A model generated the notes under the pieces. It saw only the letters and a program-made list of their open reading frames with translations, was not told the origin of the DNA and searched no databases. Positions 15,873 to 18,704 of a stretch of DNA of 64,000 bases are shown piece after piece (within the stretch, counting starts at the first letter, position 1; the number at the start of each line of letters is the position of its first letter). The DNA is from Chitinophagales bacterium (GTDB taxonomy: Bacteria > Bacteroidota > Bacteroidia > Chitinophagales > UBA10324). Both the position numbers and the translations under genes were made by a program. The stretch is taken from positions 626,732 to 690,731 of the forward strand of contig JAIBAY010000001.1 in assembly GCA_019694975.1 (NCBI GenBank). The letters run 5' to 3'.

Positions 15873-16607
15873 CTAATCTTTAGCTGTTTCCACCGGCAGG
15901 TACAATTTCATCATTCCATTCAGCGCGAGGTCATCGGCATGACCAGAGACCTTTCTGTCGTCGCTCACGAAATGAATGTGCATCTTGGTGCTGTGCTCGG
16001 CAAGCACGCGGTACTGTTTGGTACAATAGAAACCAACCAGCGTTGTCTCCACATTGTTGGCTGTGCCTGTAAGCCCTGAACTCTTGACTTTTTTATTGGT
16101 TACTTCCTTATCGTTGATGTCCCAGTCTGTCACACGCCAGTCTACGCGTTGCAGCTCGCCTTTCAGCAAAAACGGGAAAGCGACATCCAGGTTGATCTTT
16201 TGTCCTTTCGCGGAATTCATGACAAATTCTTCCAGTTGTTTCCAGTTTTGAATATCGGCCGGAACCGGAACCTCAGTCCATTTTTCTACCGATGCGTACA
16301 CCAGCAAGGTCGCTTCCGTATTCCAGCTTGAATCAATCGCCACTGAATCGCCCTGCACAAATGAAGTATATGGTTTTCCATCATCCACCACTATAAAGCC
16401 TTTGAGGTTGGTGACCGAACCGATGGCATAACTGTGTGGCGCAGCGGAGATATCCTTCAATGCAATGTGCGTAGTCATATCGCCTTTCTTGATGAGATCT
16501 TCCATCTCACCGATGGTAGTGGCATTATAACTTTTGAAGGAATTGCACGAATTCAGCGATACCGCTGCCAGCAACAGCAGGGTCAACATTCCCAGGTAAT
16601 GTTTCAT
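15873..16607 (-). CDS. Lipoprotein of the acetolactate decarboxylase fold
   Basis: The start at 16607 gives MKHYLGMLTLLLLAAVSLNSC, a lipoprotein signal with lipidated Cys21. The 244-residue product follows the BudA (alpha-acetolactate decarboxylase) pattern throughout: EDLIKKGD, AIGSVTNLKGFIVVDDGKPY, an Arg at 158 in DWRVTDW, and MHIHFVSDDRKVSGH near the C-terminus. His210, His212 and His223 keep the H-x-H-x10-H spacing of the zinc ligands known in BudA. The LDGE segment, whose Glu is conserved in true decarboxylases, reads LKGF here. It is therefore a membrane-anchored relative whose reaction is uncertain. A diverged paralogue lies directly upstream. Confidence 0.75.
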   Translation of the reverse strand: MKHYLGMLTLLLLAAVSLNSCNSFKSYNATTIGEMEDLIKKGDMTTHIALKDISAAPHSYAIGSVTNLKGFIVVDDGKPYTSFVQGDSVAIDSSWNTEATLLVYASVEKWTEVPVPADIQNWKQLEEFVMNSAKGQKINLDVAFPFLLKGELQRVDWRVTDWDINDKEVTNKKVKSSGLTGTANNVETTLVGFYCTKQYRVLAEHSTKMHIHFVSDDRKVSGHADDLALNGMMKLYLPVETAKD

Positions 16608-16647
16608 GGATTTTTTTTCGCGCAAAGATGCTGACTAAATCGGCATT

Positions 16648-16663
16648 AAGCTGTGAACAGCTT
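16648..16663. promoter_or_regulatory. Palindrome upstream of the first acetolactate-decarboxylase-like gene
   Basis: AAGCTGT-GA-ACAGCTT is a perfect 7-bp inverted repeat in the 79-base gap between the two paralogous lipoprotein genes. Read on the minus strand it lies just upstream of GCATCTTTGCG (about 16621-16631), which is one base from the TAnnTTTG -7 element. It could be an operator or a weak hairpin. Confidence 0.35.
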
Positions 16664-16686
16664 GTAAATCTTTTTTTAACATGCCA

Positions 16687-17430
16687 TCACTCGGGAGCGG
16701 CTTCGGGAAGCAATAATTTCATTCTGCCATCCAGCCTGATATCTTCAATACGCGCCGCCAGCGAATGATCGTGATTCACAAAATGCATGTTCAGTACCGT
16801 TTCCTGGTGAACGAATATTTCCTTTGCATCCTTGGAGAAAAAACCAACTACATCCACCTGCTCATCAGATAAATTACCGGTAATGCCGAGCGTATGCATC
16901 TTTTTATAGGTAATTTCCCTGATGTTGGGCCTCCACTTCAATACATGCCAGTTGATATTTGCAGCAGTTCCCACAAGACGGAAACAAAATACGGATGTCC
17001 TCGAGACATTGTACTTGGTAGTGATATTGGAAATAAATTGTTCGAGTTGCTTCAGTGTAGTTACTTCAGCGGGAATGTCAAATGATTTCCATTTCGAGAC
17101 GGTTGAATATAGCAGCAGGGTTGCTTCGGTATTGCAACTCGAATCGATGGTCATCGTTCTCATCGTATCAACGGAGCTGGCATAACACTTCCCGTCTATA
17201 ACGGTAATAAACCCTTCATTATTGGTGGCATTGCCAATGGCGTATAAATGAGGCTGACGATTCAGCTCACTGAGGCGGGCATGCGTGGACAGATCACCGT
17301 CGCGAATGAGCTTTTCCAGCTCTCCGGCACGGGTAACGCTTACCACTTCCCTGCTTTCGCAGGATTGGATTAACTGGAGCGGCAGGGCAACCGTAATGAT
17401 GAAAAACAGCCGGTGAAATGAGTGCAGCAT
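16687..17430 (-). CDS. Diverged acetolactate-decarboxylase-fold lipoprotein with lost metal ligands
   Basis: Tandem paralogue of the gene downstream. The start at 17430 gives MLHSFHRLFFIITVALPLQL and a lipobox-like IQSC at Cys24, for 247 residues; ATG 17466 is an alternative. The fold-defining segments are kept (EKLIRDGD, YAIGNATNNEGFITVIDGKCY, TEATLLLYSTVSKW, VDVVGFF), but the metal site is not: the H-x-H of the paralogue reads N214-M-H216, and the third His position is Arg227. The Arg of DWRV is His162. His220 and His222 lie close by and might form a different site. It is likely not a classical decarboxylase and may be a binding or structural protein. Confidence 0.7.
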   Translation of the reverse strand: MLHSFHRLFFIITVALPLQLIQSCESREVVSVTRAGELEKLIRDGDLSTHARLSELNRQPHLYAIGNATNNEGFITVIDGKCYASSVDTMRTMTIDSSCNTEATLLLYSTVSKWKSFDIPAEVTTLKQLEQFISNITTKYNVSRTSVFCFRLVGTAANINWHVLKWRPNIREITYKKMHTLGITGNLSDEQVDVVGFFSKDAKEIFVHQETVLNMHFVNHDHSLAARIEDIRLDGRMKLLLPEAAPE

Positions 17431-17726: not shown

Positions 17727-18704
17727 ATGCATCTTATGGAATACAGAAGATTGGGTAAGTCAGGTTTGCCGGTCAGTGCTTTATCACTCGGTTCATGGCT
17801 GACCTTCGGAAAACAAATTGAAGACGCTGTTGCGGAAGACCTGATGAAGACAGCCTATGACCATGGTGTGAATTTTTTTGATAATGCGGAAATCTATGCA
17901 CGCGGTAAATCAGAAAAGGTGATGGGAAAAATACTGAAGAAGATGAAATGGCAGCGCGACTCTTATTGCGTCTCCAGTAAAGTCTTCTTTGGTGTAGGCA
18001 GGCTACCCACGCAAAAAGGGCTTCACCGCAAGCATGTAACAGAAGCCTGTGAACAAGCCATGAAACGGCTGAACGTTGATTACCTTGATCTCTTCTTCTG
18101 TCACCGGCCTGATCCTGAAACACCTATAGAAGAAACGGTATGGACGATGCATCAGCTTATTCAGCAGGGGAAAATTCTATACTGGGGAACATCGGAGTGG
18201 AGTGCCGGTGAGATCACGGAAGCGCATACCATTGCAGAAAAACATCACCTGATTGGCCCTGCCATGGAACAACCTCAATATAACATGCTCCACCGGCAGA
18301 GGTTTGAATCGGAGTACGCCATACTTTTTGCAAGGTATGGCATGGGCACCACCATCTGGTCGCCGCTTGCTTCCGGGCTCTTAAGCGGAAAATACCTGTC
18401 GGGCAAAACAGGAGAAACCAGGCTCAGCATGGCAGGCATGGAATGGCTGAAGGAACAAAAACTGAATGATGTTGCAGCCTTGGAAAAAGTGCAAAAGCTG
18501 AAAACTGTCGCTGATGATTTACAGGTTTCCCTTGCAAAACTGGCCATTGCCTGGTGTCTTAAAAATCCGCATGTCAGCACCGTGATATTAGGCGCCTCCA
18601 AAGTTCAGCAGCTTAAAGAAAACCTTGCCGCACCCGAAGTGGTGCCCCTGCTGACAGAGGATGTCATGCAACTTATCGAAGGCTTGCTGAATAATAAAGC
18701 ATAG
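17727..18704 (+). CDS. Aldo/keto reductase (potassium-channel beta-subunit type)
   Basis: 325 residues forming the TIM-barrel of the AKR family. The YRRLGKSGLPVSALSLG start, FDNAEIYARGKSE with the catalytic Asp and Tyr, the Lys in VSSKVFFG, the His in LDLFFCHRPD, and the C-terminal NADPH segment VILGASKVQQL are all present, so the catalytic tetrad looks complete. The DPETPIEETV and ILYWGTSEWSA segments resemble the YghZ/Kv-beta branch, which reduces aldehydes such as methylglyoxal with NADPH. ATG 17736 is an alternative start. The gene stands alone between the lipoproteins and a large secreted protein. Confidence 0.9.
   Translation: MHLMEYRRLGKSGLPVSALSLGSWLTFGKQIEDAVAEDLMKTAYDHGVNFFDNAEIYARGKSEKVMGKILKKMKWQRDSYCVSSKVFFGVGRLPTQKGLHRKHVTEACEQAMKRLNVDYLDLFFCHRPDPETPIEETVWTMHQLIQQGKILYWGTSEWSAGEITEAHTIAEKHHLIGPAMEQPQYNMLHRQRFESEYAILFARYGMGTTIWSPLASGLLSGKYLSGKTGETRLSMAGMEWLKEQKLNDVAALEKVQKLKTVADDLQVSLAKLAIAWCLKNPHVSTVILGASKVQQLKENLAAPEVVPLLTEDVMQLIEGLLNNKA

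Follow-up and report, generated by a model that had tools for sequence, protein, structure and literature searches.

A tandem pair of exported lipoproteins of the acetolactate decarboxylase fold, one without most of its metal site, in a mostly Bacteroidota branch of the family

Introduction

What might a protein with the fold of acetolactate decarboxylase (ALDC) do when it carries a lipoprotein signal, and what might a second copy do once its metal ligands are gone? The question is raised by two adjacent genes in a stretch of 64,000 nucleotides, here called the window, from the genome of a Chitinophagales bacterium. The original prediction, made from the letters of the DNA, saw in the products P0001 and P0002 two tandem relatives of BudA, arisen by duplication. 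Our analysis suggests that both belong to an exported, mostly Bacteroidota branch of ALDC-fold proteins which would be distinct from the cytoplasmic acetoin enzyme. The reading that we tentatively prefer, at somewhat less than even probability, is that P0001 is an exported three-histidine metal enzyme of changed specificity and P0002 its conserved non-catalytic partner.

Results

Both genes lie on the minus strand at the place originally given for them (Table 1). P0002 (17430-16687) comes first in the direction of transcription, followed after 79 bases by P0001 (16607-15873), and since the scan of that gap found no terminator-like site on the minus strand, a single transcript led by P0002 is plausible. 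The same pair in the same order is kept in a second species of the genus (G002). An aldo/keto reductase gene adjoins the ALDC-fold gene in all seven loci of the pair's clade; we rejected a functional part for it, as the association is one of conserved synteny only and the gene, on the opposite strand, is not an operon member.

Table 1. Features of the locus, with positions in the window
Feature	Position	Strand	Description	Basis
P0001	15873..16607	-	244 aa ALDC-fold lipoprotein; H210, H212, H223, Phe71, Arg158	PF03306, model, lipobox by eye
P0002	16687..17430	-	247 aa lipoprotein paralogue; N214, H216, R227, Phe74, His162	identity to P0001, column map
P0002-P0001 intergenic gap	16608..16686	-	79 bases	scan: without minus-strand terminator-like site
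Aldo/keto reductase, divergent	17727..18704	+		PF00248, E 1.8e-70

The link to BudA, originally drawn from the sequence pattern, is borne out for P0001 by profile search and by superposition. P0001 matches PF03306 (AAL_decarboxy) with an E-value of 4.8e-14 and 52.6 bits, above the gathering cut-off of 25 bits, and it finds the crystal enzyme 4bt2 at E 6e-4 in phmmer; a profile built from 12 relatives finds the same structure at E 5.7e-11. Its AlphaFold2 model, computed from an alignment of 55 sequences (without L051 and L033:1321), has a mean pLDDT of 94.4 and a pTM of 0.87, and a model of the His-rich relative L081 is likewise confident (pLDDT 90.8). Foldseek with the P0001 model ranks solved ALDCs first (4bt3, E 4.9e-14). 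Residues 25-242 superpose on residues 21-225 of the 4bt3 chain with Z 23.0 and an rmsd of 2.5 A over 202 aligned positions, and Z is 22-23 on the solved ALDCs compared; the human protein PTD012 (1xcr) follows with Z 14.3 and a Foldseek E-value of 3e-6, while its own family PF08925 (DUF1907) is absent from the Pfam matches of both proteins at E<=1. We thus regard the predicted ALDC fold of P0001 as solid. The likeness to BudA was originally said to run from end to end, which is not quite so, since the classical C-terminal part is missing and the structural alignment stops at residue 225 of 4bt3.

P0002 is harder to place, having no Pfam family at E<=1 and no match among PDB sequences. It is, however, 38% identical to P0001 over 242 positions (E 7e-60), and its orthologue, to which it is 63% identical, scores 22.9 bits against PF03306 (E 5.9e-5), just below the cut-off; on these two grounds we assign it to the ALDC-type family. 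Against TIGR01252, the equivalog model of acetolactate decarboxylase, P0001 scores 33.3 bits, compared with a cut-off of 180.65, and P0002 has no score at all. For both proteins, the label "acetolactate decarboxylase" given in databases probably misleads.

Both proteins were predicted to be lipoproteins, and by eye each indeed has a lipobox cysteine after a hydrophobic stretch (LNSC in P0001, IQSC in P0002). Export does not set this pair apart: a crude scan of 57 branch sequences found a hydrophobic N-terminal stretch in 52, of which 36 have a lipobox and 16 the hydrophobic stretch only, with neither in the other 5. Predicted export is therefore a trait of the whole, mostly Bacteroidota branch. 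An exported ALDC is known from Bacillus brevis.

How widely is this branch distributed? With P0002 as query we found matches in 10 of 60 nearby genomes. A profile search that covered 395 genomes of the phylum, 298 of the order and 16 of the GTDB family found relatives in 22, 30 and 8 of them, respectively. Two of these eight family carriers, both of the window's genus, have the pair, five have one gene of its clade, and one (G013) has a different subfamily. Among the genomes sampled the pair is confined to the one genus, in whose third genome (G001, 74% complete) neither gene was found. The 16 named relative loci are from Chitinophagales, Saprospiraceae, Crocinitomicaceae, Portibacter and other Bacteroidota. 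Among plasmids a relative of P0001 turned up once, in Acinetobacter; it is annotated as acetolactate decarboxylase and lies beside an ammonium transporter, and no gene in the 20 kb viewed is annotated for metal efflux. Viral contigs encoded no relative, neither of two pattern hits being confirmed. Among the papers listed in literature searches, judged by titles and abstract openings, none describes this branch.

Our comparisons of residues started from 57 family open reading frames (ORFs) covering at least 181 profile positions. P0001 and P0002 stand in for the two window copies among these, the locus L034 was counted with the classical-type set instead, and the Acinetobacter protein brought the total back to 57; the table does not include ORFs that are broken or partial (L018, L032, L072), nor the second copies from G507 and G567. 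The resulting census comprises nine sequences of the pair's clade and 48 others, set beside six classical-type references.

In the phmmer alignment with 4bt2, F71 of P0001 stands at the glutamate of the LDGE motif, R158 at the arginine, and H210, H212 and H223 at the three histidines, which we take to be E65, R145, H194, H196 and H207 in B. brevis numbering (E65 and R145 counted along the 4bt2 alignment). That the three histidines of P0001 would lie near one another in space, as the original prediction required, is judged from this sequence alignment. The corresponding columns of the two copies are F71/F74, R158/H162, H210/N214, H212/H216 and H223/R227. By this mapping all residues originally named are correct, and the loss of the metal site in the second copy, with N214, H216 and R227 at the triad positions, stands. 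The glutamate column holds Phe in eight and Tyr in one of the nine clade sequences, Glu in 47 and Ala in one of the others, and Glu in all six references. The arginine column reads Arg in six and His in three of the clade, His in 47 and Thr in one of the others, and Arg in four, Ser in one and Ala in one of the references, so that histidine occupies it in 50 of the 57 branch sequences. P0001 was said to keep its arginine. Arg158 is certainly present, but because this column is His in 47 of the 48 relatives outside the clade, the residue was probably regained within the clade rather than plainly retained.

The triad itself is well conserved, being complete in seven of nine clade sequences and 47 of 48 others. 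The second metal histidine is invariant (57/57), the first is Asn in P0002 only and Arg in L065 only, and the third is Arg in P0002, its orthologue and L065. The last-named protein (L065:1396-2112(+)), from a different family, has lost the glutamate and two of the three metal histidines independently of P0002, so the site has gone at least twice in the branch. Most branch members outside the clade carry extra histidines, in a THH before the HxH and, in about half, in an HxH of the 169-171 loop; the extra loop histidines are gone in all nine clade sequences. The tail past the third histidine is 21 and 20 residues long in the pair and 8-27 in the 57 branch sequences (the 8 belonging to one cut by a contig end), as against 32-49 in the six references, and the classical C-terminal segment carries E253 of B. 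brevis. His220 and His222 of P0002, originally taken for new histidines, are not new: the single-copy relatives L005 (NHKH) and L006 (NHNH) have both together with an intact third histidine, which rules them out as replacement metal ligands. H162 and other histidines of P0002 could bind a metal in some other way.

Was the duplication recent? That a duplication took place is confirmed, but it was not the recent event that the tandem arrangement might suggest. A tree of 33 of the 57 branch sequences unites the nine of the clade (support 100/99) and divides them in two: P0001 groups with L004_628 and L009 (99/99), P0002 with L004_1489 and with four genes that are present in single copy (95/90). 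The copies thus sit in separate branches with single-copy relatives, and a within-genus tandem duplication, which would join all four genes from the two genomes that have the pair, is rejected (p-AU 3.6e-6). The duplication, as read from the tree, predates the genus, and the simplest account would be an old tandem duplication followed by loss of either copy in five genomes. The original prediction placed the loss or change of activity after the duplication. This fits the metal site of P0002; the exchange of the glutamate for Phe in P0001 is real but must be older, since all nine clade sequences have an aromatic residue there. The third histidine of P0002 would have been lost before the two species split, and the first only in the species of the window. 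Moreover, four of seven related carriers have only a gene of the P0002 branch, each with all three histidines, and hence partnership cannot be the role of that whole branch.

Such stepwise loss of ligands, R227 common to the orthologue and N214 unique to P0002, together with the lack of any Pfam match for P0002 alone, is what one might see if P0002 were a decaying copy without function. We consider this very unlikely, since its frame is open, its lipobox intact and the order of the pair conserved in a second species. Moreover, dN against the orthologue is 0.33 for P0002 and 0.26 for P0001, with synonymous sites saturated (pS 0.77 and 0.82 respectively); because of that saturation we read constraint from dN beside pS without forming dN/dS ratios, and on this reading both copies look constrained.

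Could P0001 nevertheless be a true exported acetolactate decarboxylase, turning acetolactate leaked from neighbouring cells into acetoin? The match to PF03306 above its cut-off, the three histidines and arginine in place, a Z of 23 to a crystal enzyme with a bound substrate-like acid and the existence of exported Bacteroidota proteins that match classical ALDC strongly (L034, 235 bits against PF03306) all speak for it, yet the low TIGR01252 score, the Phe in place of the LDGE glutamate and the absent C-terminal segment make it clearly unlikely. The supply of substrate points the same way. TIGR02418 (E<=1e-5) had no match in the window genome and TIGR00118 (E<=1e-20) none in any of the eight carriers of the GTDB family, the window genome included, while each model was positive in 14 of 14 control genomes; TIGR00118 matched in 31 of 48 carriers overall. 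Some of the family carriers without a match are incomplete genomes. No alsS neighbour was seen among the ORFs around the pair. With no acetolactate synthase match, acetolactate of the cell's own making is unlikely as the substrate; acetolactate taken from neighbours is compatible with the missing synthase. As a separate matter, the window genome (G000) and the seven other family carriers without the synthase may lack branched-chain amino acid synthesis.

The surroundings of the relatives could suggest a different role. Outside the pair's clade but within its GTDB family, one genome has a heavy-metal-binding domain (HMBD) fused to the ALDC-fold protein (L012:435-1289(-)), and counting this fusion, HMBD genes lie within 5 kb in four of 48 carrier genomes (the others being G142, G200 and G373, distances taken by hand), where chance, estimated by hand for about two HMBD loci per genome, would give about 0.2 of 48. 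Cus/Cop-like metal efflux clusters that include HMBD domains contain or adjoin the ALDC-fold gene in L094, L102 and L115 (they contain it in L094 and L115), and in L076 a MerT-like gene with a score below cut-off follows. Such findings, and the extra histidines of most relatives outside the clade, might indicate that both proteins bind metal without catalysis, as periplasmic carriers or sensors of a family tied to the efflux of copper or other metals. For the pair itself we find this rather unlikely: the window genome has no HMBD match, none lies nearby in the seven carriers of the clade, the extra loop histidines are missing throughout the clade, and the efflux link is seen in a small minority of relatives.

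A second loose association is with genes of the rhodanese/persulfide type. Of 123 neighbours scanned, 7 have a rhodanese domain and 3 an HMBD (the 123 come from a total of 178, without the neighbours of L115 to L121 and a few more; in the synteny clustering, ORF picking dropped the family gene from 3 of the 57 loci). L090 and L101 each have an MBL-rhodanese gene resembling persulfide dioxygenase next to the ALDC-fold gene, and in L079 such a gene lies two genes away. An FmdE domain is fused to the ALDC-fold protein in L033:862-2154(-), and an FmdE-rhodanese protein (L113:5558-6559(+)) is encoded two genes from the ALDC-fold gene, both near an ArsP-like permease. With HMBD and rhodanese links seen in a minority of relatives, and no HMBD match in the window genome, these associations bear only weakly on the pair. 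In L051 / L091:6167-8128(-) an ALDC-fold lipoprotein and an amidohydrolase share one open frame, perhaps through fusion, perhaps through a stop that was overlooked.

Discussion

How, then, might the pair work? In the reading that we tentatively prefer, P0001 would most likely be a membrane-anchored enzyme facing the periplasm, with H210, H212 and H223 as the ligands of a single divalent metal, probably Zn. The metal would activate the carbonyl or carboxyl group of the substrate, as in ALDC and PTD012. Given an aromatic residue for the catalytic glutamate and no C-terminal segment, P0001 should either have a substrate that is not alpha-acetolactate or carry out a different reaction step. P0002, unable to hold a metal in the manner of the triad, would most likely be a non-catalytic partner under selection, perhaps the second half of a heterodimer with P0001.

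A broader proposal, which we rate as rather improbable when taken as a whole, is that of an unrecognised, Bacteroidota-wide exported ALDC-fold branch with its own His-rich site, a changed reaction and loose links to metal efflux and rhodanese/persulfide genes, where the window's lineage would have been stripped to the bare triad and would have kept the enzyme and its metal-less paralogue as a heterodimer of the envelope. It is this wider exported branch, rather than a pair confined to a single genus, that holds more interest. Its graded loss of the site offers a natural series for asking how the chemistry of a three-histidine metal decarboxylase shifts before the protein ceases to be an enzyme. 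Moreover, members that score above the PF03306 cut-off can automatically receive the ALDC name despite missing the glutamate or arginine, the tail and sometimes the supply of substrate.

Among known systems the closest is the classical enzyme (BudA, AlsD, AldB; PF03306; structures 4bt2, 5xne and 6inb), which P0001 resembles in fold over residues 25-242 and in the histidine triad. Unlike it, the pair is exported and lacks both the LDGE glutamate and the classical C-terminal segment, P0002 additionally misses two of the three histidines, and the pair's genome has no acetolactate synthase match. A more distant comparison is PTD012 (C11orf54; DUF1907, PF08925; 1xcr), a human protein without a lipoprotein signal, which is of the same fold class as P0001 but only 10% identical to it over 206 aligned residues. 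PTD012 is described as a beta-ketogulonate decarboxylase with a three-histidine Zn site (PMC12435205); since this is another beta-keto acid, the fold can serve other keto acids. To the same branch as the pair belong exported proteins of PF03306 type from Saprospiraceae, Flavobacteriia and other groups (L075, L081, L016 and similar), which have in common with it the export signal, the short tail and the HxH...GHxD pattern; unlike the pair's lineage, however, they keep the LxGE, mostly have the THH, and carry His rather than Arg at position 158.
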